64,000 nt of DNA from a virus. Under the pieces are notes generated by a model. It was not told where the DNA came from and did not search any database. It saw only the letters and a program-made list of their open reading frames with translations. Positions within the stretch are counted from its first letter, which is position 1. Every line of letters begins with the position of its first letter. The stretch spans positions 186,001 through 250,000 of IMG/VR virus record IMGVR_UViG_3300025121_000011. One strand, written 5' to 3'. The translations under genes were made by a program, and so were the position numbers. This document shows, in pieces, positions 23,757 through 55,454 of this stretch.

Positions 23757-24092
23757 ATGGGAGGAATTCCGATATCCTATTTTCACGATATGGTTACAGA
23801 ACTTAAAATGAGTTTGGAATATACTTATGATGATTCTTGGTATGGTAATGTGGTATACAGAGGGTATTCTTATAGATTTCCAGAAGGAAATGTTACTTTA
23901 GCGGTGGTTCCATATCACTCATATTATTTTATGCCACCAAGTTATATTAACTTTTTTTCTGGTGGTCGATTTTACAGACCAGGTCCTATATCTCCAAGAG
24001 AGGCGGCAGAAATTTTGTTAGATCATAAGATCCCAATTTATAATTATTTGGATTTTTTTAATTCTGATGTTTATGTTGATGGAGATATTTAA
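23757..24092 (+). CDS. Hypothetical protein, 111 aa
   Basis: Not recognised. Rich in Tyr, Phe and Gly, with strand-like segments (WYGNVVYRGYSYRFPEGNVT) and a final YNYLDFFNSDVYVDGD. The neighbour at 24095 has a similar layout and ending (IIYYLEIFNPSYRVGDY), so the two may be diverged duplicates. GAGAGG lies upstream. It lies in the replication operon between loader and helicase. Confidence 0.6.
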   Translation: MGGIPISYFHDMVTELKMSLEYTYDDSWYGNVVYRGYSYRFPEGNVTLAVVPYHSYYFMPPSYINFFSGGRFYRPGPISPREAAEILLDHKIPIYNYLDFFNSDVYVDGDI

Positions 24093-27602: not shown

Positions 27603-27762
27603 AAATTTAATTGTTTCTTCTGAAAATAATGATTTAGAAATTACAATTTTAATAACAGATGCTAAGTTTAAAAAAAAACTTCTTAGAGATTTATCTTTAT
27701 CAGGTAATCTAAAAGTAAATGGAACTGATGTTGTTTTCATAGATAAGGAACAAGATGCCTAA
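27574..27762 (+). CDS. Hypothetical protein, 62 aa
   Basis: Not recognised. Short alternating strand pattern (DLEITILITDAKFKK, then NLKVNGTDVVFID). It overlaps both neighbours, typical of a compact phage operon. No catalytic or metal motif is visible. Confidence 0.55.
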   Translation: MREQVIGKIKNLIVSSENNDLEITILITDAKFKKKLLRDLSLSGNLKVNGTDVVFIDKEQDA

Positions 27763-28045
27763 ATATACTTTTGAATGTGATAAATGTGATTTTAATGATA
27801 TTAAGACTTTTAGTATTTCTGATTTTTTGATATATAAAGAAGAGAAAAAAGAATGTCCAGAATGTAATGCTGGCGTATTATCTCATAAGCTGGGGAAAAT
27901 TAGAAATGAAGTTGATAAAAGTTCTTTAGAAATAATGGATGATATAAGAATAGATGTACAGAAGACAATTAAAAAGATAGAAGCTGGAGATCAAAGGACT
28001 ATTGAGTCCATCTATGGCGATAAACCTAACCCATATAAGGAGTGA
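27755..28045 (+). CDS. FmdB-type zinc-ribbon protein
   Basis: The N-terminal zinc ribbon is CDKC...CPEC spaced as in FmdB/CxxC_CxxC_SSSS regulators (PKYTFECDKCDFNDIKTFS). The tail is helical and charged (MDDIRIDVQKTIKKIEAGDQ). It lies directly upstream of the PrkA gene, whose ribosome binding site AAGGAG overlaps its 3' end. Phages often carry such small zinc ribbons. Function is unknown, perhaps a protein-binding adaptor. Confidence 0.75.
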   Translation: MPKYTFECDKCDFNDIKTFSISDFLIYKEEKKECPECNAGVLSHKLGKIRNEVDKSSLEIMDDIRIDVQKTIKKIEAGDQRTIESIYGDKPNPYKE

Positions 28046-28047
28046 AT

Positions 28048-29952
28048 ATGGCGGATACCAACCTAATGGACTTGCTTCAAAGTCATATTGAAAAGAAATC
28101 AGAGTTGTCTTGGACTGGAACCTTAAAAGAGTACGTCCAAATGGTAGTTGAAAATCCCGGATTATATAAAAATGCTCATCAAAGAGTTTTAGAAATGATT
28201 GAGTCTCATGGCATAGAAAAAGATGCAGATGGTAATATAACTGGATATACTTTTTTCAAAGATGATTTATTTGGTATTGACACTCCTATTGAACAGATAA
28301 TGTCTTATTTGCGTGCTGCCGCAGCCGGAAGCGAAGTAGGAAGAAGAATTCTGTTATTATTTGGTCCAACATCTTCTGGAAAATCACAATTAGCAATTTT
28401 ATTAAAGAGAGGACTGGAACAATATTCTAAAACAGATGCTGGAGCAATTTATGAACTAGTAGATTCTCCAATGCACGAAGAACCATTAATAGCAGTTCCA
28501 CAAGAATTAAGACCAATGTTTAAAGAACGTTATGGAATAAATATACAAGGCGAATTAAGTCCATTAACAGCTCTTCTTCTTAAAGAAAAATATAATGGTG
28601 ATTTTCTAAAGATGCCGGTTAGAAGAACGACAATCTCCGAACGAGATAGAACTTGTATAGGAACTTTTGTCCCATCTGATAAGAAAAGTCAAGATATTTC
28701 AGAATTAGTTGGTTCACTAGACTTGAGCACTATAGGAACTTATGGATGCGAATCTGACCCAAGAGCTTATAGATTTGATGGAGAGTTGAATGTTGCGAAT
28801 CGTGGTATCATGGAATTCGTAGAAATGTTAAAGGTAGATCAAAAGTTCTTATATGTTTTGTTGACATTGGCACAAGAGAAAAATATTAAGACTGGAAGAT
28901 TTCCACTGATATATGCAGATGAATTTATTCTATCGCACAGTAATGAGACGGAATACAATAGATTCTTAGCTAAAGATGAAATGGAAGCACTTCACGATAG
29001 AACAATTGTTGTTAGAGTTCCATATAATCTGCAAGTAGAAGAAGAAATTAAAATTTATCAAAAGTTGATAGATCAAGCAGACTTCAAGAAATGTCATATT
29101 GCACCACACACTTTACGCTGTGCGGCTATGTTAGCTGTTTTATCTAGACTAAAGAACTCCAATAATCAGAGTTTATCTCCACTTAAAAAGATGCATCTTT
29201 ATAACGGAGAAGATGTAGAAGGATTTACTGCCGCAGAAGCTAGCAAATTTAAGAGTGAATTTCCATCAGAAGGTATGACCGGACTTTCTCCGCGATATGT
29301 TATCAATCGATTATCTGCGGAATTAGCAAATGGAAAAGAGTTTGTTACTCCTATTGATATTATTAGGTCATTACGTGACGGATTAGAATCCAATCCTAAA
29401 GTTAATGCTCAGGAGACTGCTCGATTAGAAGATCTTTTAACATTGATCATTGAAGAATATAATAAAATGGCAAGAAATGATGTGCAAAAGGCATTCTTTG
29501 TAAACTTTGATTCTGAAATAGGTGCTTTGCTTAAGAATTATTTAGATCAAGTTGAAGCCTTTTTAGATGGAGCAAAATTAGAAGATGCCTGGGGTAAAAA
29601 GGTTCCTCCTGACGAAAGATTAATGCGATCCATCGAAGAGAAGGTTCAGATCTCCGAAAGCGGGAAAACGTCCTTTAGACAAGAAATTTATAGAAAGATG
29701 TTAAAATCTCAAAAAGATCATGGAGAATATCGTTATCAAGATCATCCAAGACTTAAAGAGGCTTTAGAGAAGCAGCTTTTCGAGGAGCGTAAGGACACTA
29801 TTAGACTTACAATAAGTTCTCGCAACCCAGACAAAGAAGAGCTGAAGAGAATTAATGGTGTTATAAGTATTCTATGTGAAAGGCATGGATATATTGTTGA
29901 ATCTGCTAATCAGCTACTTAGGTATGTAGGCTCATTAATGGCTCGCAACTAA
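28048..29952 (+). CDS. prkA: PrkA-like AAA+ serine protein kinase
   Basis: Strong match to PrkA/YeaG: DDLFGIDTPIEQIMSYLRAA leads into Walker A GPTSSGKS (residues 106-113). Downstream are MHEEPLIAVPQELRP, the RANRG-like VANRGIMEFVEML (arginine finger region), PLIYADEFILSHSNETEY, and a C-terminal kinase-like region. Length 634 is normal. GTG 28042 is in frame, but AAGGAG at 28038-28042 supports ATG 28048. In bacteria PrkA acts with YhbH/YeaH and SpoVR, and both of those are also encoded 4-9 kb downstream here. Confidence 0.92.
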   Translation: MADTNLMDLLQSHIEKKSELSWTGTLKEYVQMVVENPGLYKNAHQRVLEMIESHGIEKDADGNITGYTFFKDDLFGIDTPIEQIMSYLRAAAAGSEVGRRILLLFGPTSSGKSQLAILLKRGLEQYSKTDAGAIYELVDSPMHEEPLIAVPQELRPMFKERYGINIQGELSPLTALLLKEKYNGDFLKMPVRRTTISERDRTCIGTFVPSDKKSQDISELVGSLDLSTIGTYGCESDPRAYRFDGELNVANRGIMEFVEMLKVDQKFLYVLLTLAQEKNIKTGRFPLIYADEFILSHSNETEYNRFLAKDEMEALHDRTIVVRVPYNLQVEEEIKIYQKLIDQADFKKCHIAPHTLRCAAMLAVLSRLKNSNNQSLSPLKKMHLYNGEDVEGFTAAEASKFKSEFPSEGMTGLSPRYVINRLSAELANGKEFVTPIDIIRSLRDGLESNPKVNAQETARLEDLLTLIIEEYNKMARNDVQKAFFVNFDSEIGALLKNYLDQVEAFLDGAKLEDAWGKKVPPDERLMRSIEEKVQISESGKTSFRQEIYRKMLKSQKDHGEYRYQDHPRLKEALEKQLFEERKDTIRLTISSRNPDKEELKRINGVISILCERHGYIVESANQLLRYVGSLMARN

Positions 29953-29963
29953 GGGAGTGGCTT

Positions 29964-31913
29964 TTGGATAAAAAATACAAAGATGCGCTATGGTTGAGTA
30001 AAACCTATTTAGATGATAGACAATCTGCGGAGACTATAGCGCATTTCTGCGGAGTCTCAAGCCAGACTATAAGATATTTTATTAATAAATATAATTTACG
30101 TGATGAAAGAGTTAAAATAGATAACGACTTAAAGGAAAAGTTTTTATTTAAACTTAAAAGTCTCTATATAGATGAGAATCTCTCTGTAAGAGAGATCTCC
30201 TGCTTGTTAGAACAAAATGAAGGCACCATAATGTCTATTTTGGCTAAAAACAATATTCAAAAAAGCTTGAATATTCGTCACGAAAAAGCTAAAGAAGCTA
30301 GGGCAAAAACACTTATTAAAAAGTATGGAGTAAATCACGTTAGTAAGATTCCTGGTATAAAAGAGAAAATTGAAGCTACTAACTTAGCAAGATATGGTCA
30401 TTCTAATGTATTAAAATCCTTGGAAATTAGAGAAAAGATTAAAGCTACAAATCTTGAAAGGTATGGTGTAGAAACCCCACTTGAATTGAAAGAATTTCGT
30501 GACAAGTCTAATAAAACGTGTCTAGAAAAATATGGAGAAATATATCCTCAACGGCTTAGTTGCATAAAAGATAAAACATCCAAAACTAATTTAGAACGAT
30601 ATGGTTTTGATAATCCAATGAAAGTTGAAGAATTTGCAAATAAGCAGAAAGAGTCAGTATTTAAAAATTATGGAGTGGATCATCCGCTTCAAAGTATGGA
30701 GATCTATTCGAAGTTATGTGAATATAATCTTGAAAAGTTTGGAGTGGACAACGTTTTAAAGTTAAAAGAAACAAGAGATAAATCTAATGCAACTAAACTA
30801 TCCAGGTACGGAACAATACATCCGTTACAAAATGAGAATATTCTAAATAAAGTAAAGAATACTAATTTAGAACGTTATGGTACAAAATGGTCGATTCAAA
30901 ATAAAGAGATTCGTTCAAAAGGAAGAGAAGCTTCTATTTCAAATGGATTATTTACAATCTATCATGGGAAAACTGCTCATGAATGGGCGAACGAGTATGA
31001 CATACCAATGGTTGGCTTCTATAAGTGGATTGGCAATAATCCATTGTCATCGAGAGAGCAGATTATCTCGTATCTGGAAGGATTCGAAAGACATAAAACA
31101 GATATAGAGAATATTATAGAAGAGAAATTTGGTTTTGATAAGTTTAATAAAATTTTTGACAAGTCTATGAATTATAGACCAGATTTTAAATTAACTAACT
31201 CAATAGCTCTTAATGTGGATGGCCTGTATTGGCATTCAGAGCTAACTAAAGATAAATCATATCACTTTGAAATGAGGTCTAAGTATGAAGCTGCTGGTCT
31301 TAGAATTTTACAATTCAGAGAAGATGAAATTTATCAGAAGCTAGATATAGTTGAGTCAATGATTAATAACGTGCTGCACAAAAACACATCTAAAATAGGT
31401 GCTAGAAAATGTTCTATACAGCTTGTCAAAAATTCAGAAGCTTCAAAATTCTTAGAAAAAAATCACATAAAGGGAGCAAAACACGCTAAGCATATTGGTT
31501 TGTATTATAATGATGAATTGTTATCGGTAATGTCCTATAAAACAAATTCAAATTTAACATGCAAGATCGAGAGATTTTGCACAAAATTAGGAACTGTGGT
31601 GTCTGGCTCATTCTCTAGACTTCTTGGTTTTTTGATTAAGAATAACGAAATAGCAATTATTCATTACTGGGTTGATCTGCGATATGGAAGTGGAAAGTTT
31701 TTGCAGCAATTTGGATTTGTACATGCCAAGGACACGCTTGGTTGGAACTGGACAGATAAAGTAAATACCTATAATAGACTAAGGTGTAGAGCTAATATGG
31801 ATAAGAGAGGGTTATCTCAAGCAAAACATGCTGAAGAATTAAAATGGTTTAAAATATATGATGCAGGACAACGTTTATATATTTTAAATAATAAAACAAA
31901 TTTAGGAGATTGA
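29964..31913 (+). CDS. Free-standing homing endonuclease, Vsr-like, copy 2
   Basis: Largest of the three paralogues (649 aa) because the middle has about eight or nine ~27-residue repeats of the form TNLERYGV.NPL...E.R.K. N-terminal HTH-like segment (SAETIAHFCGVSSQTIRYFI). The nuclease core has YRPDFKLTNS, NVDGLYWHSE and GLRILQFREDEI, and the C-terminal domain has NHIKGAKHAKHIGL, YWVDLRYGSG and YDAGQRLYIL. TTG 29964 is supported by GGGAG just upstream. It sits 11 bases behind prkA, so prkA is the likely target locus. Confidence 0.82.
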   Translation: MDKKYKDALWLSKTYLDDRQSAETIAHFCGVSSQTIRYFINKYNLRDERVKIDNDLKEKFLFKLKSLYIDENLSVREISCLLEQNEGTIMSILAKNNIQKSLNIRHEKAKEARAKTLIKKYGVNHVSKIPGIKEKIEATNLARYGHSNVLKSLEIREKIKATNLERYGVETPLELKEFRDKSNKTCLEKYGEIYPQRLSCIKDKTSKTNLERYGFDNPMKVEEFANKQKESVFKNYGVDHPLQSMEIYSKLCEYNLEKFGVDNVLKLKETRDKSNATKLSRYGTIHPLQNENILNKVKNTNLERYGTKWSIQNKEIRSKGREASISNGLFTIYHGKTAHEWANEYDIPMVGFYKWIGNNPLSSREQIISYLEGFERHKTDIENIIEEKFGFDKFNKIFDKSMNYRPDFKLTNSIALNVDGLYWHSELTKDKSYHFEMRSKYEAAGLRILQFREDEIYQKLDIVESMINNVLHKNTSKIGARKCSIQLVKNSEASKFLEKNHIKGAKHAKHIGLYYNDELLSVMSYKTNSNLTCKIERFCTKLGTVVSGSFSRLLGFLIKNNEIAIIHYWVDLRYGSGKFLQQFGFVHAKDTLGWNWTDKVNTYNRLRCRANMDKRGLSQAKHAEELKWFKIYDAGQRLYILNNKTNLGD

Positions 31914-31919
31914 CATAAA

Positions 31920-32918
31920 ATGAAAATTACTAGAATAAGTGAAAATGAGAAACAATTTACTGATAATAGCCCTATGAATGAGCTTGATCAGCCTTTCCCT
32001 ACAAAAGTAGTGGAAGAAGATGAGGAGATTAATAATGCCCCGTTATTATACAATAGTTTTAAAGTATCTCCACTAAAAGTAAATAGAGTGCAAGCTTCTA
32101 GGATTGTTGATGGAGAGATTATAGATTATAAAGATTTCAAACCCCAAGCTAAGCTTATCATGGGAGTTTTATATAATCCGAATATTGTTCCTGTAGCTTC
32201 AGGAAGTATGTTTCAAATTTTGGGAGTTGAAAGCAAAGAATGCCAAGCTAAAGTTCCGCTTCTTTTATCATTTGATGTACTTGAAAAAAGCAAACCAATT
32301 GCGATTCAATCAGTTGAATTTGCTGTTCAAACGGAACCAAATTTTCTGGAAGAAATTTCACGTACATATTTTGGTACATATTTTGGATCTAAATCTATTA
32401 TATGTGCCGCAGATATTGTTTCCGATATGTTTCATATTGCTTTTAAGTCATCATTTAATTTTGCCATATATGAATTGGAAAAAAGTTACGTAAATCATTT
32501 TGGCCGATATCCATCGGCAATAATGTTAATTTCGCGAAATACGGACCCGCCATTCTTTTTTCTTGACACTATAAGTATGATTAAAGGGGGGACCTCTTAT
32601 GAAAGATCATATGGATTTGATGGATTTATAGTTGCTCTTGATGAAGAAGGTGAAGAGTTAATAACTCAATATTTATTGAAAGATAGCATTTGCAAAACTA
32701 GAGCATTTGCGACAAGTGAGTCAATAAAAGACTTTGCTACTCCAATTGAAAAAAATATGTTTCATGAAGACTATAATTCTGTTGAGTCCATATATAAGAT
32801 TATGGATAGTAAGCTAAATATTGAAATTCTTAAAGAAAAGAAAGAAAAGTTAAATGATATTTTTAATCCTAGCAAAGTGATAATAGCTGGAAAAAACGAA
32901 ACATTGTTTTCTGACTGA
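31920..32918 (+). CDS. Hypothetical protein, 332 aa
   Basis: Not recognised. Acidic, polar N-terminus (about 40 residues) followed by a mixed alpha/beta body with hydrophobic strands (AKLIMGVLYNPNIVPVASGS, then YPSAIMLISRN) and a helical end. There is no clear catalytic motif. GGAG lies upstream of ATG 31920. It is placed between prkA/endonuclease and the yhbH-like gene, so it could belong to the same functional unit. Confidence 0.65.
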   Translation: MKITRISENEKQFTDNSPMNELDQPFPTKVVEEDEEINNAPLLYNSFKVSPLKVNRVQASRIVDGEIIDYKDFKPQAKLIMGVLYNPNIVPVASGSMFQILGVESKECQAKVPLLLSFDVLEKSKPIAIQSVEFAVQTEPNFLEEISRTYFGTYFGSKSIICAADIVSDMFHIAFKSSFNFAIYELEKSYVNHFGRYPSAIMLISRNTDPPFFFLDTISMIKGGTSYERSYGFDGFIVALDEEGEELITQYLLKDSICKTRAFATSESIKDFATPIEKNMFHEDYNSVESIYKIMDSKLNIEILKEKKEKLNDIFNPSKVIIAGKNETLFSD

Positions 32919-32928
32919 CGAAGAAATA

Positions 32929-33000
32929 ATGTCACAACAGCATGATGCTGGTCAACGATTATATATATATATATTTTTGATTAATAATGCTAAACAATAA
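32929..33000 (+). pseudogene. Relic of a fourth homing endonuclease (3' tail)
   Basis: A 23-codon frame reads MSQQHDAGQRLYIYI and on to a stop at 33000. HDAGQRLYI is the conserved end of the three full-length Vsr-like endonucleases (YDAGQRLYIL in copy 2). At DNA level, ATGATGCTGGTCAACG here matches ATGATGCAGGACAACG at the end of copy 2 with two changes. The first 12 bases, ATGTCACAACAG, equal the first 12 bases of the yhbH-like gene at 33840, suggesting a recombination scar. A microsatellite-like TATATATA follows. Confidence 0.7.
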
Positions 33001-33020
33001 ATATAAAGTAGAGGTTTAAA

Positions 33021-33140
33021 ATGAGTAAAACAATCAAAGTTGATTTTGAAAACTCTAGGTTAACTAATATTATTAGATATCAATCTAAATCGGTCAATCA
33101 ACTTCTAGGATACGTTAGCTCTTTAACGGTTAGAGACTAA
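33021..33140 (+). CDS. Small protein, 39 aa
   Basis: Short frame starting MSKTIKVDFENSR and ending SSLTVRD, with a good AGAGG site 5-6 bases before ATG 33021, and its stop directly abutting the ATG of the next gene (TAAATG). Not recognised. The ribosome binding site and exact junction support real translation. A leader or coupling peptide is possible. Confidence 0.5.
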   Translation: MSKTIKVDFENSRLTNIIRYQSKSVNQLLGYVSSLTVRD

Positions 33141-33434
33141 ATGAATTATAATAACACCGTACAATGTGCTTCTTGGGAAGAATTTATATCAGAAATTAAA
33201 AATAGGCGAGCATTAAAACATAGTTTGGATTTTCAAGATTTTCCAATGCGACTTTCATTTGGATTTGAAGATGAAGAATTGGGAGAACTGGTTATGGCAA
33301 GCATTAGAGCTATTTCTCCTATAATGGCCTCTATGTCTGGTAAAGAAAAAAATATCTTTACATCTCAAATCGAAGACTTTAGTACCGGTGAAAATATCTT
33401 GCATATTTTATATCCTGAATTATGTGAAGATTAA
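33141..33434 (+). CDS. Hypothetical protein, 97 aa
   Basis: Not recognised. Residues ~30-60 (LDFQDFPMRLSFGFEDEELG) are strand-like, followed by a helix with small residues (VMASIRAISPIMASMSGKEK). Acidic C-terminus. Tightly packed between the 39-aa frame and the next gene. No motif visible. Confidence 0.6.
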   Translation: MNYNNTVQCASWEEFISEIKNRRALKHSLDFQDFPMRLSFGFEDEELGELVMASIRAISPIMASMSGKEKNIFTSQIEDFSTGENILHILYPELCED

Positions 33435-33435
33435 A

Positions 33436-33828
33436 ATGGCAAATAATTTTTTTAAAATAATAAAGATATGTACATTAGTTGGGAAAAAGTATCCAGAATT
33501 TGCTGATACTTTCCACATTATTAAAGATGAAGTACCCGATGAATATAGTATTCCATTTCATTACTTAGAAACAGATAAGTTTGCTAAAATAGAAGATGAA
33601 GAAAATATTATATTTAACACTGGTGACACAAAATTAGATGTTAAAACTCCATTTTTATTATCGGATAACCCCAAGATTCTCATTAGAGAGGTTTCAGAAA
33701 AAATTATATTTTTAATCGAAGAATATGTTAAGTATTATAATCATCTGCCATATCAAATAGCAATTTCTGTGCAAAATAATATGTATGGAGTTTTTGCAGT
33801 AGGTGATTTTAATTTAAAGAGAATATAA
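33436..33828 (+). CDS. Hypothetical protein, 130 aa
   Basis: Not recognised. Begins MANNFFKIIKICTLVGKKYP. Mixed strands and helices, ending in a beta-rich segment (QIAISVQNNMYGVFAVGDFN). An in-frame ATG at 33388 lies inside the previous gene. The start at 33436, one base after that gene's stop, is more economical. GGAG of the next gene lies just after its stop. No function suggested. Confidence 0.6.
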   Translation: MANNFFKIIKICTLVGKKYPEFADTFHIIKDEVPDEYSIPFHYLETDKFAKIEDEENIIFNTGDTKLDVKTPFLLSDNPKILIREVSEKIIFLIEEYVKYYNHLPYQIAISVQNNMYGVFAVGDFNLKRI

Positions 33829-33839
33829 ATGGAGTAATT

Positions 33840-35036
33840 ATGTCACAACAGTATGATAGCTTATCTGATATTTGGAAGCTTAAGGGTCGTGGGAAACGCG
33901 ATTCTGAGCGACACAAAGAATTGGTTAAACGTGCCATTCGAGAAAATGGAAGGGACCTGATCACAGAATACAATATCATACGTTCTGATGGAAGTAAAAA
34001 AGTAAAAGTCCCAATTCGCTTTTTAGATAAATATCATTTTAAATATGGAAAATTAAAAGATGATAAAGGAGTTGGACAAGGATTAGATGGTAAGCCTGGA
34101 GATAAATATAAAGTTGGAAGCCCAGCACCCGCCGGAGGCTCTGGACAAGCAGGCAATGGAGATGGAGAACGTTATTATGACGCAGAGGTTTCAATTGATG
34201 AAATTGTCGATATTCTGATGCAAGAACTTAATCTTCCTTGGCTTGAACCAAAAGGTACAGCACAGATAGAATCAGAAGAAGAGCAGTTTGACTCTATTGA
34301 AAAGAAAGGCATTATGCCCAACTTAGATATTAAACGATCTTTGATTCAAAATATTATTCGACACGCTGCAAAAGGTGACCCAAAAGTTGGTCAATTTCAT
34401 AAAAATGATCTTCGTTTTAAAGAATGGGAAAATGTAAAAGAGTATCATTCTAATGCAGCCATTTACCTCTTAATGGATCGCTCTGGTTCTATGACTCTCG
34501 AAAAGACTCATATTGCTAAAAGTTTTTTCTTTTGGATGGTTCAATTTTTAAAGAAGCGATATAAAAAAATAGATATCATTTTTATAGCGCACGACACTAA
34601 GGCTTGGATTGAAACAGAGGAAAACTTCTTTGCTATAAATTCCGGAGGCGGCACTCAATGCAGTTCAGCATTTGCGTTGGCGCACGACCATATAATCACA
34701 CACCATCCTGCGGACCGATGGAATAATTATGTTATTGAATTCAGCGATGGAGATAACTGGGGTAACGATAATCTATTGTGTCTAGATTATGTTAAGAAAC
34801 TATTGCCATTATGCCGGGCCATCGGTTATGGAGAAATTATTCCAGATTCAGATAAGGAAAATGCTTGGTTTAATAAATCTAATTTATTATCTACTGTATT
34901 AGAAAAAAATATTAAACGAACAAGATATGTAACATTAAGATTGCAAAAACGAGATGATGTTTTTGATGCACTAAAGAAATTCTTTAATATTGATGGAGCA
35001 TCAGATAAAAATCTAAGAGATGAGAATGGAAAATGA
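33840..35036 (+). CDS. yhbH: YhbH/YeaH family VWA-domain protein (DUF444)
   Basis: Full-length member of the DUF444 family. The N-terminus RGKRDSERHKELVKRAIREN and the PGDKYKVG/GGSGQAGNGDGE linker are typical. The VWA domain begins AIYLLMDRSGSMT with the MIDAS Asp213-x-Ser215-x-Ser217, then FIAHDTKAWIETEENFF and SGGGTQCSSAFALA. In bacteria this protein is encoded with PrkA and SpoVR and is thought to be a partner of the kinase. GGAG precedes ATG 33840. The 3' end overlaps the third homing endonuclease gene by 17 bases. Confidence 0.9.
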   Translation: MSQQYDSLSDIWKLKGRGKRDSERHKELVKRAIRENGRDLITEYNIIRSDGSKKVKVPIRFLDKYHFKYGKLKDDKGVGQGLDGKPGDKYKVGSPAPAGGSGQAGNGDGERYYDAEVSIDEIVDILMQELNLPWLEPKGTAQIESEEEQFDSIEKKGIMPNLDIKRSLIQNIIRHAAKGDPKVGQFHKNDLRFKEWENVKEYHSNAAIYLLMDRSGSMTLEKTHIAKSFFFWMVQFLKKRYKKIDIIFIAHDTKAWIETEENFFAINSGGGTQCSSAFALAHDHIITHHPADRWNNYVIEFSDGDNWGNDNLLCLDYVKKLLPLCRAIGYGEIIPDSDKENAWFNKSNLLSTVLEKNIKRTRYVTLRLQKRDDVFDALKKFFNIDGASDKNLRDENGK

Positions 35037-36630
35037 AAAACCAAAATATCAAGATGAAATTTGGCTTAAAACTGAGATTTTAATATCTAAAAAAACTGCT
35101 ACAAAAATAGCAAAAGAAAACGGATGGTCTGCTTCTACGGTTTTAAAATGGCAAAGGCATTTTGGAATTATAGAAGAATATAAGAATCACAAATGGCTCC
35201 AACATCAGTTTTTAGATCTTAATAAAACAGCTTTAGAGATTTCAAGAGAACAACATTGTTCTTCAATCACAATAAATAAATACCTCTGTAAGTTTAATAT
35301 TAAAAAATCTTATGACGCAGCAATACAGGCTAAGATTCTTTCAACAAAAAGAACTTGTATCGATAGATATCAAGTAGATAATCCTATGAAGTTGGCAAAT
35401 ATCAAACAAAGAGTAAAGATAACTTCTAAAGATAAATATGGTGAAGAACATTTTTTAAAAACAAATACAGGCAGAGAGAAACTAAAAGAATCTATTAAAC
35501 AAAAATATGGTTGTGATTATATAACTCAAACACCAGAAGTAAAATTAAAAATCAAAGAAACAGTAATGAATAAGTACGGTGTTTGTAATGTTTCTATGGT
35601 GCCTGAGATCGCAAAAAAGAAAAGACAGACGCTTATCTGTTTGCATGGATTTAATCCGGCAACAGAACAGACGGGACTCTGTAGAGTTATTAATGGTCTT
35701 ACAACCAAAGAATTAGCTGAGAAGCATAATGTACCATATTCTTCTTTGAATTATATTTTTAGAACATTTCATATAGAAACTGAAGAATCTTTAGAAGCAT
35801 TCTTATCAGATTACAAGATTGGACCTAATAATTTAGAAAAGTATTTAGAAGATTTAATAGATCTTCCACATTGGAATATTGCGCCTGAAAATGTTAAATT
35901 ATCATATAGACCAGATTTTAGATTAAGTAATTCTATTTATTTAAATGTTGATGGGTTATATTGGCACTCTGATAAATTTAAAGATAAAAATTATCATTAT
36001 AAAATGAGAGAAGAGTTTGAATCCGCAGGCTTGCAAATCGTACAATTTAGGGCAGACGAGATACATGCAAAGCCAAAAATCATTAAATCTATTATAAATA
36101 ATAAGGCAGGAAAGTCGCAAAAGATCTCCGCTAGAAAAACCATCATTAAAAAAGTGTCTCATGAAAATGCTATGATTTTTCTAAATGAGAGTCACATAAA
36201 AGGATATAAAGCTGCAAAACATATTGGATTATATTTTGAAAATATTTTGGTCATGATTTGTTCTTATAAGATTATAAATAAAATTTTGAAAATTGAAAGA
36301 CTTGCAACATTACTTGATCATTTAGTTGTTGGAGGAGCATCTAAATTGTTTAAATTCCTTGAACGTAATTTAAAATTTGATATGATTCATTATTGGGTTG
36401 ATTTACGATACGGAAAAGGAGATTTTTTAAGTTCTATGGGGTTCTCTAAGAACAAAGATGTTCTTGGATGGGAGTGGACTGACTATGTTAAAACATATAA
36501 TCGTTTACAATGTAGAGCCAATATGGATGATAGAGGTTTATCACAATCAGAACACGCTTGTGAGTTGGGATGGGTCAAAATTTACGATGCAGGACAAAGA
36601 TTATGGATCAAACAAAACAATCTTCGATGA
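35020..36630 (+). CDS. Free-standing homing endonuclease, Vsr-like, copy 3
   Basis: 536 aa, same layout as the other two: HTH-like N-terminus (ATKIAKENGWSASTVLKWQ), only four or five KYG-type repeats, nuclease core YRPDFRLSNS, NVDGLYWHSD, GLQIVQFRADEI, then SHIKGYKAAKHIGL, YWVDLRYGKGDF and YDAGQRLWI. Starts within the end of the yhbH-like gene; ATG 35026 is an alternative start. It ends with an ATGA overlap onto the next gene. Its placement implies the yhbH locus as homing target. Confidence 0.82.
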   Translation: MRMENEKPKYQDEIWLKTEILISKKTATKIAKENGWSASTVLKWQRHFGIIEEYKNHKWLQHQFLDLNKTALEISREQHCSSITINKYLCKFNIKKSYDAAIQAKILSTKRTCIDRYQVDNPMKLANIKQRVKITSKDKYGEEHFLKTNTGREKLKESIKQKYGCDYITQTPEVKLKIKETVMNKYGVCNVSMVPEIAKKKRQTLICLHGFNPATEQTGLCRVINGLTTKELAEKHNVPYSSLNYIFRTFHIETEESLEAFLSDYKIGPNNLEKYLEDLIDLPHWNIAPENVKLSYRPDFRLSNSIYLNVDGLYWHSDKFKDKNYHYKMREEFESAGLQIVQFRADEIHAKPKIIKSIINNKAGKSQKISARKTIIKKVSHENAMIFLNESHIKGYKAAKHIGLYFENILVMICSYKIINKILKIERLATLLDHLVVGGASKLFKFLERNLKFDMIHYWVDLRYGKGDFLSSMGFSKNKDVLGWEWTDYVKTYNRLQCRANMDDRGLSQSEHACELGWVKIYDAGQRLWIKQNNLR

Positions 36631-37043
36631 TTGATAAGATATATACCACTGGATTATTCACCCCAATATCATTAGACAAAGGAGAGTTTTCGCTTAATGG
36701 AACTGATTATATTGCAGTTGCAAGAGGAGATCATGTTAATTGGATTGTGAAGAAAGTTATTCATGTTCGGCCCGAAATCTCACATGGAAGCTTCGCCAGA
36801 GCAGATAGTAATGCATCAAGGGTTAAAATTCGATATGTCTCAGTTTCCTTTGAAGAAGTATTTGATAATTGTTCAGATCGAATTAAAAAAGAATTGATTT
36901 ATCATTTTGATATTTTTAATGATAATAAAAAGAACAATTATTTAGAAACACCTGTTTTTGAAATACAATCAAATCCACAAATTCATCTATCGGATATTAA
37001 AATACGTAGATTCAAAATGTTAGAATATATTTGGAGAAAATAA
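36627..37043 (+). CDS. Hypothetical protein, 138 aa
   Basis: Not recognised. Start is uncertain: ATG 36627 gives an ATGA overlap with the endonuclease stop, and in-frame ATGs at 36603 and 36570 lie inside that gene. It is strand-rich in the first half (EFSLNGTDYIAVARGDHVNW), then helical and basic at the end (KIRRFKMLEYIWRK). It lies between the yhbH-like and spoVR genes, so it may have been part of that operon before the endonuclease arrived. Confidence 0.6.
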   Translation: MIDKIYTTGLFTPISLDKGEFSLNGTDYIAVARGDHVNWIVKKVIHVRPEISHGSFARADSNASRVKIRYVSVSFEEVFDNCSDRIKKELIYHFDIFNDNKKNNYLETPVFEIQSNPQIHLSDIKIRRFKMLEYIWRK

Positions 37044-37044
37044 T

Positions 37045-39699
37045 ATGAATGATGTTCTGGAAAGAAGAATTAAAATGTTAGAAGAGTTAGCAACTAAAGA
37101 ATTAGGATTAGACTTCTTTCCAATTATGTGGGAAATAGTTCCTGAAGAGGTAATGTTAGAAGTGATGTGCTATGGACTACCTTCAAGAATTAGGCATTGG
37201 TCTTATGGGCAAAGTTATGAGTATCAAAAGACGCAGGGAGAAATGGGAGCATCTAAAGTTTATGAATTGGTTTTAAATAATGATCCCGCATTCGCCTTTT
37301 TGTTAGATTCTAACAGTAATATTGCAAATTCAATGGTCGCGGCACATGTTTTGGGTCATGTGCATTTCTTTAAGAATAATTATTTATTTAAACAAACCGA
37401 CCGTAAAATGGTTTATCATGCTGCTGAGCGAGCATCAAGAGTAGAGGAGTATATTACTCAATTCGGATTAGAAGAAGTAGAAAAAACCATGAATATTGCT
37501 TTAGCTATGGATAAGAATATTAATTGGAAAAGAGGAATAAATAGAACACAATATGGTGATAGGAAAAGTGTCTGGCAAAAGAGAAAGGTACAAGAGTTTG
37601 ATGATATGTTTGGACTAAATAAAAAACCCGAATTAGAGCGAGTCATTGAAAATGATATATTTCCACCAAGTCCAGAGGAGGATTTGCTGTGGTTCTTCGC
37701 TAATTATGCGCGTTTAGAGCCCTGGCAAAAAGATATTTTTGAAATTATTAGAGAAGAGTCATTTTACTTCTATCCGCAATATAATACACAAATAATAAAC
37801 GAAGGTTTTGCCTGTGTTTCCGGAGATACGCTTGTTCCAACTGAACAAGGTATTCTACAGATTAAGGATATAGTTTTAGGTGATGCATTATATGTTGATG
37901 ATAATGAAAAGAGGAGGCAGATTGTTGGAAAAAAGATAATTGGAGAGAAAGAGTGCAAAAAGATTATAACTAAACGAGGCTATGAGTTATGTGGTGCAAA
38001 TAATCATCGTGTATTATGTGATAATAAGTGGAGGCAGCTAGATGAGTTAGAAGTAGGGCAAAGAATAGATATATCTTTAAATAACGAGATTTGGTCAAAT
38101 AATTACGTACAAGTTGATTATAAACCCAAAAGAGCGAAGAAAACTTTACTAGATATATCAAGACTCGCAGGAGTTGCTCCAGTCACTATTGCTAGAAGGA
38201 GGATGGGTTTAAATGTTAAAAATCTAAATCATATAGATTCTTTAATTAAGATTTATGAGGCTGAACAAAATGATTTAACTTTATGCAGCTCATATAGCTT
38301 TGATAGGCGAAAAATATTTTTAATTCCAGATCATATTGATGAGAAATTTGGAAGGTTTTTGGGCTTATTGATTGGTGATGGACATATATCCAGAGCAAGC
38401 AGATCTTTTGGATTTACATCTGGTGATTTAGAATTAGCTGAAGAATTTAGGACCTTAATTTGTGATTTATTTGCAACAAAGTCTGTGCTCAAGAAGGATG
38501 AAAATCGATATAGAATCATCTGTCATTCAGAGGGAATATCTGATTTTTTAATAAATTATATAGGATGCAAGCAAGGAGTTTCTGCGAGAAAAAAAGATGT
38601 GCCATCGATAATTTTACAATCTCCAAAGTCCGTTATGTCATCGTTTATTAGTGGATTATTCGATGCAGATGGATGTGCTCATAAAAATGGAATTACATTC
38701 GTAACTGCTAGTAAGCAGATGGCGAAATTAATTCAAACTATTTTAGTTAATTATAATATTCTTTCTAGTAAATATTACAGACAAGATGAGACATATGCTA
38801 TTAATATATTTGGATTATCAGCAAAGAAATTTTCTGAACAAATTGGATTCGGATTAAACAGAAAACAAAATATTTTAAATGCTTTTATACAGAATAAAAA
38901 ATGGTTTAAGAAAGAAAAATCATATGATGAGATTAAACATATAGAATCGCTTACTGAAATAGTTTATGATATTTCTGTTGAAGAGTCTAATAGATATGTG
39001 GCAAATGGATTAATTAATCACAACTCATTTTTTCACGCAGAATTAATGTATTTGCTTTCGGAAAAAGAACTTAGTTCAACTGAATATTTAGAATTTGTTA
39101 AGATTCATGAGCGCGTTATTCAACCAGGAAATAATAAGTTAAATATCAATCCATATTTTTTGGGATTTACGATTTTAAATGATATTAGAGCAAAATGGGA
39201 TAAGAAGCATAAAGATGGAGAATCGGAACTTACCGGAATACAAAAAATTCTAAAAGTAGTAGAATTAGAGGATGATATTTCATTTTTAAGAAATTATCTG
39301 ACACAGGAAATTGTTGATAAACTTAAAATGTTCGTCTATATTGAAGAATTTGATCACGCAAAAAATAAATTTATCGAAATTAAAAGTACCCGAGTAGAGG
39401 ACGTAGTAGAATATATAGCGAAGGATATTTACAACTATAGGGCCCCAATTATTTCTATTAATGCAGCCACTCCAACTGGAATTGAATTAGTACATCAAAG
39501 TAGAGAAGTTGGAACACTAGACCCAAAGCATTTAGAAAAGGTAATGGGATACATATATGAAATATGGCCAGGAATTGTAGATTTGGAAACGATAGATAAT
39601 CATGGTGAAATAATTAATTTTACTTTTGATGAATTTGGAATGAGTTTCCAAGACGATGAAAAAACGGGAAAACATCGTATAACTTTTAAAAAGAAATAA
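37045..39699 (+). CDS. spoVR: SpoVR family protein with in-frame intein
   Basis: SpoVR/YcgB homologue. The host part is residues 1-256 plus 661-884 (480 aa, normal length). Family blocks: LGLDFFPIMWEIVPEEVMLE, PSRIRHWSYGQSYEYQK, MVAAHVLGHVHFFKNN (conserved histidines), FYPQYNTQIINEGFA joined to SFFHAELM (NEGWAxxxH in most members), and the C-terminal DDxxGxxRITF-like end. SpoVR is needed for spore cortex in Bacillus; YcgB is a stress protein elsewhere. Together with PrkA and YhbH it completes a known bacterial three-protein module. GGAG precedes ATG 37045. Confidence 0.92.
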   Translation: MNDVLERRIKMLEELATKELGLDFFPIMWEIVPEEVMLEVMCYGLPSRIRHWSYGQSYEYQKTQGEMGASKVYELVLNNDPAFAFLLDSNSNIANSMVAAHVLGHVHFFKNNYLFKQTDRKMVYHAAERASRVEEYITQFGLEEVEKTMNIALAMDKNINWKRGINRTQYGDRKSVWQKRKVQEFDDMFGLNKKPELERVIENDIFPPSPEEDLLWFFANYARLEPWQKDIFEIIREESFYFYPQYNTQIINEGFACVSGDTLVPTEQGILQIKDIVLGDALYVDDNEKRRQIVGKKIIGEKECKKIITKRGYELCGANNHRVLCDNKWRQLDELEVGQRIDISLNNEIWSNNYVQVDYKPKRAKKTLLDISRLAGVAPVTIARRRMGLNVKNLNHIDSLIKIYEAEQNDLTLCSSYSFDRRKIFLIPDHIDEKFGRFLGLLIGDGHISRASRSFGFTSGDLELAEEFRTLICDLFATKSVLKKDENRYRIICHSEGISDFLINYIGCKQGVSARKKDVPSIILQSPKSVMSSFISGLFDADGCAHKNGITFVTASKQMAKLIQTILVNYNILSSKYYRQDETYAINIFGLSAKKFSEQIGFGLNRKQNILNAFIQNKKWFKKEKSYDEIKHIESLTEIVYDISVEESNRYVANGLINHNSFFHAELMYLLSEKELSSTEYLEFVKIHERVIQPGNNKLNINPYFLGFTILNDIRAKWDKKHKDGESELTGIQKILKVVELEDDISFLRNYLTQEIVDKLKMFVYIEEFDHAKNKFIEIKSTRVEDVVEYIAKDIYNYRAPIISINAATPTGIELVHQSREVGTLDPKHLEKVMGYIYEIWPGIVDLETIDNHGEIINFTFDEFGMSFQDDEKTGKHRITFKKK
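37813..39024 (+). mobile_element. Intein with LAGLIDADG endonuclease in SpoVR
   Basis: 404 residues in frame (257-660). Cys1 opens CVSGDTLVPTEQG, and INHN followed by Ser+1 closes it. The block-B position reads GANNH. Two LAGLIDADG motifs with intact acidic residues (FLGLLIGDGHI and FISGLFDADGC) predict an active nuclease. An HTH-like segment (LLDISRLAGVAPVTIARR) lies before it. Removal restores NEGFASFFHAE, the most conserved SpoVR stretch. Confidence 0.92.
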
Positions 39700-39709: not shown

Positions 39710-40264
39710 ATGAATACTGAAGTTACAGAAGGACAAGTATCTGTTAAAAAAGAGCCGTACATCGATTATTCTTTTCAATTTAATTTAGCAAGAGAAAGAA
39801 CGGAAAAGAAAATTTTTAGTTATATGTGCGATCTTGCTAAGAAGTTATTAGAAACCAAAAGAAAATTAGGGCTCTTAGTTGTTTTAGGGACATTCGATAG
39901 GTATTCGGATTATTCTGTTCCTGGTATGCGTCAATTGGGAAAGAATACTATTCAGAAGTATATAAATGTTGCTTTTGGTCAATTCGAAACAGATATAGAG
40001 AAAATATTCGAATCAAAAGAAGACGGAGCTATTATTATAAATCATAATGGTCAGATTTTGGGCACCGGAATTTATCTTACAGTAGATCACCCCTCTTTGG
40101 AGATACCAGAGGGCGCCGGAACAAGACATATTTCTGCTGCTTCTTTTTCTACTAGAGATGATGTAATATCTACATTTACTCTCTCAGAAGAGACCCTGAC
40201 TGTTCGATTATGGAAAGATGGAGCCTTTACGGAACAATATGGGCCAGAAGAAGATGCAGTCTGA
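39710..40264 (+). CDS. DisA_N-type diadenylate cyclase-like protein
   Basis: Single DAC domain. KRKLGLLVVLG near 45 and FESKEDGAIIINHNG with the DGA motif at 105-107 match the diadenylate cyclase family. IPEGAGTRHISAASFSTRDD contains the second motif, normally GTRHR, here GTRHI (T138-R139-H140-I141). SEETLTVRLWKDG is the usual end. Known members make c-di-AMP from two ATP. The Arg-to-Ile change could alter activity or substrate. GGGAG precedes ATG 39710. The stop is fused as TGATG to the sigma-like gene, suggesting joint expression. Confidence 0.78.
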   Translation: MNTEVTEGQVSVKKEPYIDYSFQFNLARERTEKKIFSYMCDLAKKLLETKRKLGLLVVLGTFDRYSDYSVPGMRQLGKNTIQKYINVAFGQFETDIEKIFESKEDGAIIINHNGQILGTGIYLTVDHPSLEIPEGAGTRHISAASFSTRDDVISTFTLSEETLTVRLWKDGAFTEQYGPEEDAV

Positions 40265-40800
40265 TGTCCTTGCTTAGTAATGAAGAAATTCATAAGATTT
40301 TCTTAGATAATCAAGACTCTTTTAATAATCATTGGAGGCAAGATTTATTTATAAATCTCTGTCCTTTGGTTATTAGTAGAATAAAAAAATTTAAAACTTT
40401 TTCTTATGTTCAAGATCTAGAGCAAGAGTTCAAATTAGCTTTATGGTCTGCAATTAAAAGTTTTGACCACCATAAACATTTTGACTTTTACCGTTGGGTG
40501 AATTGGTACTTTGCCAATTCCAGTAGAAATTTTCAAAAAAATTATAATAAGATTAACTCTATTAATCTTGATGGTAATGATATAAAAATGCCAGATGATT
40601 TATTATTCGCAGAAGAGATGTTGAATTGTCAACAGCTTTCGTTAAGAGAAAAGTATATCATCCAAAAAATATTTTTTGAAGACCAATCATTAGAAGTAAT
40701 TAGTAAAGAATTAAATCTCTCAATAGAGAGAGTATGGATACTTAAAAATAAAGCAATTAAAAAAATGAAAAATATGGAGTATGATTATAATGAATGTTAA
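40264..40800 (+). CDS. Sigma-70-like RNA polymerase sigma factor
   Basis: About 178 residues. FKTFSYVQDLEQEFKLALWS and the following FDHHKHFDFYRWVNWYFANS correspond to sigma region 2 (the helix with DLxQE and aromatic residues that contact the -10 element). LSLREKYIIQKIFFEDQSLE then VISKELNLSIERVWILKNKA is region 4 with its helix-turn-helix. An in-frame ATG at 40210 lies inside the DAC gene, but the TGATG overlap supports 40264. Possibly directs host polymerase to phage middle or late promoters, as T4 gp55 does, although similarity to gp55 itself is not evident. Confidence 0.78.
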   Translation: MSLLSNEEIHKIFLDNQDSFNNHWRQDLFINLCPLVISRIKKFKTFSYVQDLEQEFKLALWSAIKSFDHHKHFDFYRWVNWYFANSSRNFQKNYNKINSINLDGNDIKMPDDLLFAEEMLNCQQLSLREKYIIQKIFFEDQSLEVISKELNLSIERVWILKNKAIKKMKNMEYDYNEC

Positions 40801-43546
40801 TGGAAGTATTCTGAGTGATATTATTATGCATAATAAATATGCTAGATGGAATGAGAATTTACTCAGAAGAGAGACTTACTCAGAATGTGTTGATAGAAAT
40901 AAACTGATGCATTTAGAAAAATTTCCAGAGCTTAAAGATGAAATAGAGGCGGCGTATACCTTTGTGTATGATAAAGTTGTGTTGCCATCTATGAGAAGCA
41001 TGCAATTTGCTGGTAAGCCTATTAAGATAGCCCCAAATCGTATGTTTAATTGTTTTGCGAAAGAGACAAAATTTGTTACATCTAAAGGGACTAAATCTTT
41101 TGAAGAATTTTCTGATGGTGATCATGTAGAAGTTGTAACGCATACAGGTACATTTAAACAAGCAGTTGTTAGATCTTATGGAGAACAAGAACTGTTTGAA
41201 ACAATTTTAATCAGAGGTCGTAATTCTCAAACGGTATATGCTACAAAAGATCATAGATGGATTAAATATGATGGAGAGCAAACAACTAGATTACAAAAAA
41301 AGGATGTTTTATATCCAACTCCAAAGCTTGAGTTATTTAATTATGCTACTTCAGAACCATTAGAAAAGTTATATTGGTGTTATGGCTATGCCTATGGGAA
41401 TGGCACCATTATAGAAAATGAAACTTCTCAACATTATATTGTTAATTTGCATAGTGTAAATTCTAAGAAATACGCCTCTCGATTTCAAGAAATGGGATTT
41501 GAAACAAGTAATCTTAAGTCACATAATGATTTTTTAGCTTGCATTGGAAATTATCATAAGCTTATATCAAATATAGATGCCAATTCTAAAGACTTAATAA
41601 AAGCATTTTTTACCGGATATTTAAATTCATCTGGAATTAGAAATACAGATTTTAATAACAATGATTCTGTGTCTAAATATAAACAAATTTCAACCACTGA
41701 TTTGGAGCATGCGCAGTTTATAGAAAAGTGTGCAGAAATTTCTGGATATTTTATATTATCTAAGAAAAAAATCATTAAGAATAAAATTATAACTTATCGT
41801 TATACTTTAACAAATAATATTGGAAGCAGTATATCGACAGCTTATTCTGTAAAAAATATTAAAAAAACTGATAGAAAAGAAGAAGTATGGTGTTTAGAGG
41901 TTGAAGAAGATCATAGTTTTATATTGTCTGGTGGAATAGTTACTGGAAATTGCGTTTTTGCTCCAGTTGATGATTATCGTATTTTTGGTGAGGTTATGTT
42001 TTTGCTTCTTGGAGGAAGTGGAGTCGGTTATAGTGTTCAAAATCATCATATAGATAATCTTCCTGAAATTAGAAAGCCTATTAAAACCAGAAGATATTTA
42101 GTAGGTGACTCCATTGAGGGGTGGGCTGAGTCGGTTAAACTTCTCATTAAATCATATTTTCTTAATAGCTCTAAACCTGATTTTGATTTTTCTGATATTA
42201 GATCAAAGGGTGCAAGGTTGATTACATCAGGTGGTAAGGCTCCAGGTCCAGCTCCATTGCAAAAGTGTTTATTTTTAATTGAGCAATTATTAAATTCCAA
42301 AACAGATGGCGATAAGCTTAAGCCAATAGATGCTCATGATATAATGTGTTATATAGCTGACGCTGTGCTCGCCGGAGGGATTAGGCGATCTGCAATGATT
42401 GCGTTATTCTCTATCGATGATATAGAAATGTTAACTTGTAAATCCGGAAATTGGTTTGAAAAGCATCCTCATCGTGGAAGAGCAAACAACTCTGCTGTAG
42501 TTTTACGTTCTAGAGTTACAAAAGAATCTTTTGGAAAACTATTTGAATTCATGAAAGAAAACAAAACTGGAGAGCCTGCTATATTTTTAACAAATGATAA
42601 AGACATGGGTCTTAATCCATGTGGAGAGGCTTCGCTTAGAGCATTTTCTGGTTGTAATTTAACAGAGATAAATGCTTCTTTAATTAACTCTCAAGAGGAA
42701 TTAAATGCTGCGGCAAAAGCGGCTTCATTTATAGGAACTCTTCAAGCTTCTTATACGAGATTTCATTATTTACGTCCAATTTGGGAACGAGGATTTAAAA
42801 AAGATTCTTTAATTGGAGTAGGTATTACTGGTTTAGCAAATGAAAATTTCTTAAAATTAGATTTAACTAATGCTGCTAAAATTGTAGTAAATGAAAATAA
42901 AAAGATATCAGAAACAATAGGAATTAAACAAGCTGCTCGAACAACTTTAGTTAAGCCTAGTGGGACGACAGCTCTTTTACTTGGAACAAGTTCTGGTATA
43001 CATGATTGGTATGCAAAATATTATATACGTCGTATTAAGTTATTAAAAAATGAAGAGATATATCATTATCTTGCTAGAGAATTACCGGAACTAATGGAAG
43101 ATGATTGGGAGAAGCCACACATACAAGCCATATTATCTATTCCTATGAAAGCACCAGAAGGCGCCATTTTAAGAGAAGATACAACACCAATCGCTCTTTT
43201 GGAAAGAGTTAAAGATGTTTATAAGCGTTGGATATTTCCTGGACATATTACTGGTAGCAATACTCATGCAATTAGCTGCACCGTTAATGTTAAAGATAAT
43301 GAATGGGATGAAGTAGAAAATTGGATGTGGACTAATAAAGATAGTTATAACTGCATTTCTGTTTTTCCACATTTTGGTGGTTCATATAAACAACTTCCAT
43401 TTGAAGAAATTACTGAAGAATGCTACTACAAAATGAGTACTAATATACACAGGATTGATTTAACAAAGATATTGGAAATGGCAGACGATACAAATCTTAC
43501 CGGAGAAGCAGCATGTGCTGGTGGTGCATGTGAACTAACATTTTAA
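40790..43546 (+). CDS. nrdJ: Class II (B12-dependent) ribonucleotide reductase with intein
   Basis: Reduces ribonucleotides to deoxyribonucleotides for phage DNA synthesis. Host part ~618 aa. Blocks: LPSMRSMQFAGKPIKIAPN, then RMFN joined to CVFAPVDDYRIFGE (N-terminal redox Cys), LLLGGSGVGYSVQ, LNPCGEASLRAFSGCNLTE (radical Cys and Glu), KPSGTTALLLG, and a C-terminal redox tail CAGGACELTF. This is the monomeric adenosylcobalamin type. No small radical-generating subunit gene is nearby. GGAG at 40776-40779 is spaced for ATG 40790; ATG 40781 is in frame but too close. Confidence 0.9.
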   Translation: MNVNGSILSDIIMHNKYARWNENLLRRETYSECVDRNKLMHLEKFPELKDEIEAAYTFVYDKVVLPSMRSMQFAGKPIKIAPNRMFNCFAKETKFVTSKGTKSFEEFSDGDHVEVVTHTGTFKQAVVRSYGEQELFETILIRGRNSQTVYATKDHRWIKYDGEQTTRLQKKDVLYPTPKLELFNYATSEPLEKLYWCYGYAYGNGTIIENETSQHYIVNLHSVNSKKYASRFQEMGFETSNLKSHNDFLACIGNYHKLISNIDANSKDLIKAFFTGYLNSSGIRNTDFNNNDSVSKYKQISTTDLEHAQFIEKCAEISGYFILSKKKIIKNKIITYRYTLTNNIGSSISTAYSVKNIKKTDRKEEVWCLEVEEDHSFILSGGIVTGNCVFAPVDDYRIFGEVMFLLLGGSGVGYSVQNHHIDNLPEIRKPIKTRRYLVGDSIEGWAESVKLLIKSYFLNSSKPDFDFSDIRSKGARLITSGGKAPGPAPLQKCLFLIEQLLNSKTDGDKLKPIDAHDIMCYIADAVLAGGIRRSAMIALFSIDDIEMLTCKSGNWFEKHPHRGRANNSAVVLRSRVTKESFGKLFEFMKENKTGEPAIFLTNDKDMGLNPCGEASLRAFSGCNLTEINASLINSQEELNAAAKAASFIGTLQASYTRFHYLRPIWERGFKKDSLIGVGITGLANENFLKLDLTNAAKIVVNENKKISETIGIKQAARTTLVKPSGTTALLLGTSSGIHDWYAKYYIRRIKLLKNEEIYHYLARELPELMEDDWEKPHIQAILSIPMKAPEGAILREDTTPIALLERVKDVYKRWIFPGHITGSNTHAISCTVNVKDNEWDEVENWMWTNKDSYNCISVFPHFGGSYKQLPFEEITEECYYKMSTNIHRIDLTKILEMADDTNLTGEAACAGGACELTF
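41051..41950 (+). mobile_element. Intein in NrdJ with decayed LAGLIDADG motifs
   Basis: 300 residues in frame. Cys1 (CFAKETKFVTSKG), block B ATKDH, block F VWCLEVEEDHSFIL, end VTGN followed by Cys+1, which is the host's N-terminal redox cysteine. The two nuclease motifs are degenerate: CYGYAYGNG has Asn, and FFTGYLNSSG has Ser, where catalytic Asp is expected. Splicing residues look intact apart from Gly at the penultimate position. The nuclease is therefore probably inactive. Confidence 0.88.
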
Positions 43547-55409: not shown

Positions 55410-55454
55410 ATGTACATGCTTTATAAAAATATAATATATTTTGGTGCCCAATGA
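55410..55454 (+). CDS. Candidate 14-aa leader peptide before topA
   Basis: A short frame MYMLYKNIIYFGAQ has a good GGAG site at 55401-55404 and ends in an ATGA overlap with the topA start, which itself lacks a clear ribosome binding site. This layout suggests translational coupling. The preceding ~95 bases after 55312 hold no other gene that I see. Confidence 0.4.
   Translation: MYMLYKNIIYFGAQ

Follow-up and report, generated by a model that had tools for sequence, protein, structure and literature searches.

A PrkA-YhbH-SpoVR gene trio in jumbo phages and its union with a diadenylate-cyclase-like gene

Genes at the locus

The stretch of DNA analyzed here, referred to as the window, comprises 64,000 nucleotides and corresponds to bases 186001-250000 of a 335,169-base IMG/VR virus record (335 kb). 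On its plus strand, genes for a PrkA protein, a DUF444/YhbH VWA protein and a SpoVR protein are followed by a gene for a protein with a diadenylate-cyclase (DAC) domain. The features of the locus are as follows.

27755..28045, +, small zinc-ribbon protein, conserved, just upstream of PrkA and found in most members of the clade (PF09723 3.4e-4, below cut-off)
28042..29952, +, PrkA AAA+ protein, 636 aa (PF08298, PF06798, Walker A GPTSSGKS)
29964..31913, +, homing endonuclease gene (DUF7487), an insertion between PrkA and VWA (PHROG 3339 7e-73)
31920..33828, +, ORFs without assigned function, outside the conserved block (31920-32918, 33141-33434, 33388-33828)
33840..35036, +, DUF444/YhbH VWA protein, 398 aa (PF04285, TIGR02877, MIDAS intact)
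35020..36630, +, homing endonuclease gene, the second insertion (PHROG 3339 4.9e-48)
36570..37043, +, small ORF with a counterpart in the related locus L011 (45% identity)
37045..39699, +, SpoVR, a 480-aa extein interrupted by an intein (PF04293 1.6e-95)
37813..39024, +, intein, 404 aa, with a LAGLIDADG domain (PF14890, PF14528, TIGR01443; boundaries from sequence)
39710..40264, +, DAC-domain protein, 184 aa, with a diadenylate-cyclase fold, directly after SpoVR (PF02457 2.8e-13)
40210..40800, +, sigma-70-like factor, the conserved next gene after DAC, found in several clade members (PF04545 3.3e-8; PHROG sigma factor)

The PrkA protein matches the AAA_PrkA domain (PF08298, 1.7e-115) and the C-terminal domain (PF06798, 2.9e-65) of Pfam, both nearly end to end, and has a solved homologue, 9xip (E 1.2e-130). 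G108, P109, K114 and S115 of its Walker A motif are invariant in the PrkA alignment. The sequence-only reading had placed the start of the gene at 28048, while the GTG start codon is actually at 28042, and had called the product a kinase. This label is doubtful, and the literature speaks against PrkA as a proven kinase: purified PrkA of B. anthracis shows negligible kinase and protease activity; it oligomerises when ATP is added (PMC13001217). The VWA protein is assigned by Pfam (PF04285, DUF444, 7.3e-86) and by the NCBIfam YhbH model TIGR02877, which is matched over its full length (372 residues) at 1.6e-106, below the equivalog cut-off. Its MIDAS is intact (DRSGS...GGT...SDGD).

As noted in the sequence-only reading, the three genes are present in the order PrkA-VWA-SpoVR within 12 kb, with Walker A, MIDAS and the SpoVR histidines intact. 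The profiles of all three families are matched. The row is interrupted, however, by homing endonuclease genes and further ORFs, and SpoVR becomes full length only when its intein is spliced out. The endonuclease gene at 29964-31913 is absent from the corresponding place in relatives, and the ORFs of 31920..33828 have no counterpart there between PrkA and VWA; two of these ORFs, 31920-32918 and 33388-33828, were scanned and gave no Pfam or PHROG match. A relative of the endonuclease at 35020-36630 is found at the same place in two loci (L014 and L016) and is missing in the others. Relatives encode PrkA, VWA and SpoVR either directly one after another or separated by insertions other than those of the window. 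A T4-type late promoter, TATAAATA, was considered as a clue to timing and is uninformative, with a single upstream match in the window.

The record itself is a jumbo bacterial virus and not a host chromosome. It encodes a terminase split by an intein at about 87.6 kb (G000:C1; PHROG 675, 1.3e-26, after a weak first match to PF03237), while searches for terminase and sheath with phrog_2, PF07068 and PF04984 were empty. Other phage-type genes are those for DnaB, a PHROG helicase, a PhoH-like protein, a tail-fibre-like protein and an endolysin-like protein, and a class II ribonucleotide reductase (RNR) with an intein is also encoded. Near-identical DNA is absent from INPHARED. These hallmark genes, together with the phage-only PrkA clade, the conserved phage synteny and the purifying selection described below, confirm that the locus is phage-borne and rule out bacterial contamination.

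Two further observations concern the window. A tubulin/TubZ-like GTPase is encoded at 13322-14773 (PF00091 5.3e-13, PF22453 3e-6). Members of the window clade share it at about 43-64% identity, INPHARED offers a single match, in Bacillus phage G (24%), and the protein is possibly a phage spindle or DNA-positioning protein. The sole tRNA in the window is tRNA-Ile with the anticodon TAT (23838-23927), which overlaps an ORF at 23757-24092.

SpoVR and its intein

The 884-aa SpoVR ORF consists of the 480-aa SpoVR protein and the intein at residues 257-660. Because the 404-aa intein interrupts the ORF, SpoVR of the window is complete only after splicing. The intein is inserted between NEGFA and SFFH, inside the invariant NEGxA motif of SpoVR. 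Inteins tend to occupy those motifs of an active site that are conserved most strongly, so NEGxA is marked by this insertion as functionally central. Among relatives, SpoVR inteins are found at about four different sites, in phages and in bacteria, and insertions at NEGxA occur both in phages and in loci of the bacterial groups Chloroflexota and Myxococcota.

HxxxH and NEGxA are intact in the window, where H101, H105 and E253 correspond to H102, H106 and E254 of L011; H52, H102, H106, N113 and E254 are invariant in an alignment of 52 diverse proteins. In the predicted structure of SpoVR (pLDDT 90.8), two helices (H93-112 and H250-269) harbor the HxxxH and NEGxA residues. HxxxH and E, as would be sought in a gluzincin-type metallopeptidase, are present, but the model gave no confident match among solved structures in the PDB with Foldseek (best E 0.15). 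SpoVR was accordingly not assigned to a known metallopeptidase fold, and the weak top matches to metallopeptidases are not taken as evidence. Because the predicted fold is without a confident solved counterpart, the metal site of SpoVR is a putative one.

Inteins are also found elsewhere. A 1368-aa SpoVR at L054 13226-17332 (also L055 and L056) harbors two inteins, and in two viral loci and one locus of Myxococcota PrkA itself is interrupted, at one shared profile position (about 282-288), by an insert that is likely an intein (L029 8006-11035, L132 9941-12844 and L208 5650-8865). The intein load of the record is unusual: in addition to SpoVR and the terminase, the following genes of the window appear interrupted.

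3723-5867, GDP-mannose dehydratase with a LAGLIDADG insert
40781-43546, class II RNR with an intein
55451-58951, topoisomerase I, apparently intein-interrupted

The diadenylate-cyclase-like gene

A profile of the DAC protein searched against the PDB retrieves CdaA-type cyclases at 8.7e-7. Its AlphaFold model is of moderate confidence (pLDDT 72) and matches CdaA, DacA and CdaM with a Foldseek probability of 1.00 (E 8.6e-7 for CdaA), while the NCBIfam DacZ match, 1.9e-10, is below cut-off. In an alignment of the proteins from eleven contigs including the window, DG, GTRH and SE are conserved; DG is invariant and A of DGA is found in 10 of 11. A departure is seen at RHR, which is RHI in the window and has I, T or K as the third residue in relatives; one bacterial DAC (L240) has RHS. 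Changing RHR to AAA abolishes the activity of M. tuberculosis DacA, and the accessible part of that paper reports no single change of the third residue (PMC3328451). Because this third residue is replaced by I, K or T, the protein of the window may not make c-di-AMP. By its sequence, the phage DAC protein may be regarded as a candidate c-di-AMP synthase with an RHR departure.

The DAC gene is present in 18 viral loci of IMG/VR and adjoins the trio wherever the contig reaches upstream. When whole records were searched, seven of 24 phage records had it, each of them a member of the window's subclade; the gene is confined to the jumbo-phage clade of the window. No PHROG family includes it, INPHARED contains no match to it, and it was seen beside the trio at none of the bacterial loci examined here.

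Distribution of the trio in phages

The trio is not unique to the phage of the window, as its relatives in INPHARED and IMG/VR demonstrate. Of 50,697 INPHARED records, 16 encode PrkA (11 Thermus phage records, four metagenomic phages of 595-642 kb and one Enterobacter phage); the same 16 carry the VWA gene, and 14 carry SpoVR. The Enterobacter phage LAU1, in which YeaG/YeaH lie at the start of the record, perhaps contains captured host DNA and was excluded as evidence. IMG/VR contains 547 stretches with a gene for a PrkA relative. From the best hits of two scans, which are not a random sample, 63 non-redundant viral loci were taken whose flanks reach 5 kb or more in both directions; some of the proteobacterial (YeaG-type) loci in this set may be host DNA. 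The VWA gene is present in all 63 and the full trio in 60, or 61 when L080, complete on separate inspection, is counted, and MIDAS and Walker A are retained at nearly all of the viral trio loci. Two gene orders are found among the viral loci, and both occur in bacteria too.

Single genes of the trio have been named before. For example, ORF28 and ORF30 of the Ralstonia jumbo phage RsoM2USA are listed as SpoVR and PrkA, respectively (PMC8504454), and spoVR is reported to outnumber every other "sporulation" gene among viruses of a marine oxygen minimum zone (PMC8940887). The sequence-only reading had supposed that the trio was unknown in phages. This does not hold, since the genes are annotated one by one in cultured Thermus phages and PrkA is encoded on hundreds of viral contigs; among the contigs that were checked, nearly all have the other two genes as well. 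The search for co-occurrence in phage genomes that it proposed gives the 60-61 of 63 loci above. That the trio is unrecognized as a phage system stands weakly: the single genes were already named, but no paper treating PrkA-YhbH-SpoVR as one phage system was found in a search that did not extend to subscription journals and preprints.

Origin, selection and neighborhoods

In a PrkA tree of 103 rows, the clade of the window comprises 15 rows, is phage-only and has a support of 100. Other viral groups are the marine phages with the order VWA-SpoVR-PrkA, a third clade with a 595-kb phage, the Thermus phages, whose long branches are placed unsurely, and the YeaG-type viruses. The locus L023, first grouped with the window clade, is placed among Thermomicrobia. 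On the question whether the phage forms are a separate clade, the viral PrkAs fall into several clades, while the YeaG-type viruses are mixed among Proteobacteria. Because the viral groups are separate, the tree fits several acquisitions of PrkA followed by long evolution within phages.

All four genes (PrkA, VWA, SpoVR and DAC) are under purifying selection, with pN/pS of 0.10-0.32 and dS mostly saturated. The block is located at the same position, with conserved flanks, in 13 or more genomes of the window clade, in the order helicase, two small genes, DnaC, DnaB, zinc ribbon, PrkA, VWA, SpoVR, DAC, sigma factor, RNR, a small gene and PhoH. Its neighbors therefore include DnaC, DnaB, RNR, PhoH and a sigma factor, and head or packaging genes are not among them. 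The neighborhoods differ in other groups. In marine phages the trio is accompanied by genes for proteostasis and starvation (GroEL, Hsp20 and PhoH), and a head-tail adaptor-like protein is encoded near some of these loci. The trio of Thermus phage Lalka8 has portal/minor head genes on one side and TerL on the other, and that of phiYS40 is close to TerL. At 25 marine phage loci (e.g., L078 12216-13448), a gene for a GroEL-like chaperonin (PHROG 5725, 6.6e-20) lies downstream of PrkA, about 2.2 kb from its start, and some of these loci also have Hsp20.

Possible roles of the module

Where an AAA+ motor is paired with a MIDAS-bearing VWA adaptor, the pair commonly serves to remodel a client enzyme or to activate it, as in MoxR/VWA, RavA-ViaA and NorQ/NorD. 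PrkA and YhbH fit this motor-adaptor pattern, and by analogy SpoVR would be the natural client. PrkA would form an ATP-driven ring, the VWA protein would act as its adaptor via the MIDAS metal site, and SpoVR would be the partner or client whose metal-like centre of HxxxH and NEGxA is remodelled or activated by the motor. The machine would be made during infection and would keep a stressed, long-infected host (envelope, osmotic balance, proteostasis) able to yield large virions. In the window clade, the DAC-family protein would supply or sense a c-di-AMP-like nucleotide that regulates the same osmotic and envelope response.

The four genes are thus tentatively read as a phage copy of a bacterial stress machine that supports the stressed infected cell and is coupled to a c-di-AMP-type nucleotide, with a probability of roughly 0.4. 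Host support is favored because of the stress phenotypes in bacteria: osmotic stress defeats prkA mutants of B. anthracis, in which the phenotypes concern osmotic stress and sporulation (PMC13001217), and YeaG of E. coli renders part of the nitrogen-starved population metabolically inactive (PMC4664914). The role of c-di-AMP in controlling osmotic homeostasis in bacteria and archaea (PMC6741144) points in the same direction. Furthermore, the linkage of the genes, the kept motifs, the selection, the DAC gene adjoining the trio and the neighbors of proteostasis/starvation or replication type favor it. An enzyme role in host support is weakened because the SpoVR model is without a confident match to a solved structure, and the position of the trio near portal/TerL genes in Lalka8 and phiYS40 fits virion assembly better. 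A more specific proposal, possible but doubtful, is that the phage clade has its own c-di-AMP-type arm wired to the trio, with a DAC protein of changed active site making or binding a cyclic dinucleotide, by which it would seize the osmotic/envelope stress response or answer nucleotide-based immunity.

Virion assembly is the main rival because of the Thermus synteny and the MoxR-vWA precedent, though we consider it rather unlikely. PrkA and VWA would then be an AAA+ chaperone and co-chaperone for the construction or maturation of large capsids and SpoVR a processing metalloenzyme. A MoxR-vWA-metallopeptidase pair has been proposed for group 2.2 jumbo phages, and an archaeal virus requires a MoxR/VWA pair for its tails (PMC7824862); the head-tail adaptor-like protein near some marine loci would agree with such a role. 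However, the AAA+ protein of the window is PrkA and not MoxR, the flanks conserved over 13 or more genomes of its clade are replication and nucleotide genes, and bacteria carry the same trio without a virion.

Less likely still is a growth-arrest or persistence switch by which the trio pushes starved hosts into quiescence, as in pseudolysogeny or carriage. The YeaG starvation phenotype (PMC4664914), spoVR as the commonest sporulation-type gene in oxycline viruses (PMC8940887) and PhoH near the trio speak for it. Quiescence is at odds with a lytic jumbo phage, and integrase or lysogeny genes were not seen in the examined parts of the window.

Second-messenger defences make nucleotide-binding phage proteins useful, and a protein with a DAC fold whose ATP-contact motif is altered, and which is kept throughout the clade, could belong to counter-defence: aided by the AAA+/VWA machine, the DAC-like protein would make a decoy for, or sequester, the cyclic nucleotides of host defences. 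This is improbable, since most phages have the trio without DAC, the trio is a stress operon in bacteria, and no defence-related genes were noted beside the trio, although a PADLOC scan was not included. That the trio, common as it is in bacteria, is functionless passenger DNA from a bacterial host is refuted by the long-standing phage-only clades, the strong purifying selection and the same position in 13 or more genomes.

Significance

The biochemistry of PrkA-YhbH-SpoVR has been murky for decades. What is new is less the widespread trio itself than two of its features: it forms a conserved operon of phages that had gone unrecognized, and it is joined to a diadenylate-cyclase-like gene. That the trio is kept together under strong selection in several lineages and dozens of contigs argues that the three proteins work as a unit from which the virus gains, and its presence in lytic Thermus phages makes such a role testable. 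As far as the present searches show, the DAC-like gene is the first link of the PrkA machine to c-di-AMP-type signalling, and its product may be a cyclic-dinucleotide enzyme encoded by a phage. The results also suggest that the "sporulation" spoVR genes of marine viromes are pieces of this operon and not sporulation genes.

Comparison with known systems

The bacterial prkA-yhbH-spoVR (yeaG-yeaH-ycgB) operon has the same families, motifs and gene order in loci of Chloroflexota, Saccharibacteria and Bdellovibrionota. The trio of the window differs in being on a phage, with PrkA in a phage-only clade, an intein in SpoVR and DAC attached. The Thermus phages phiYS40, TMA, phiLo, Lalka and MN1 resemble the window in that genes of all three families stand next, or almost next, to each other in lytic phages; their order is VWA-SpoVR-PrkA, PrkA shows 36% identity, the trio is beside TerL/portal in some, and no DAC was seen in the annotated regions. 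RsoM2USA is a jumbo phage like that of the window, with SpoVR and PrkA two ORFs apart; in the accessible part of its description, the proteins are closest to the gammaproteobacterial type, the ORF that separates the two genes is left undescribed and DAC is not listed (PMC8504454).

Group 2.2 jumbo phages (PMC7824862) have an AAA+ motor, a VWA adaptor and a possible metal enzyme, resembling the trio of the window. In these phages, however, MoxR takes the place of PrkA, and VWA and peptidase form one fusion protein, whereas SpoVR of the window is a separate protein of a different fold. The phage DAC protein shares the DAC fold, the DGA motif, GTRH and SEE with the cyclases CdaA, DacA, CdaM and DacZ, and differs from them in being a soluble form of 184 aa with I, K or T as the third residue of RHR and in its linkage to a phage PrkA operon.
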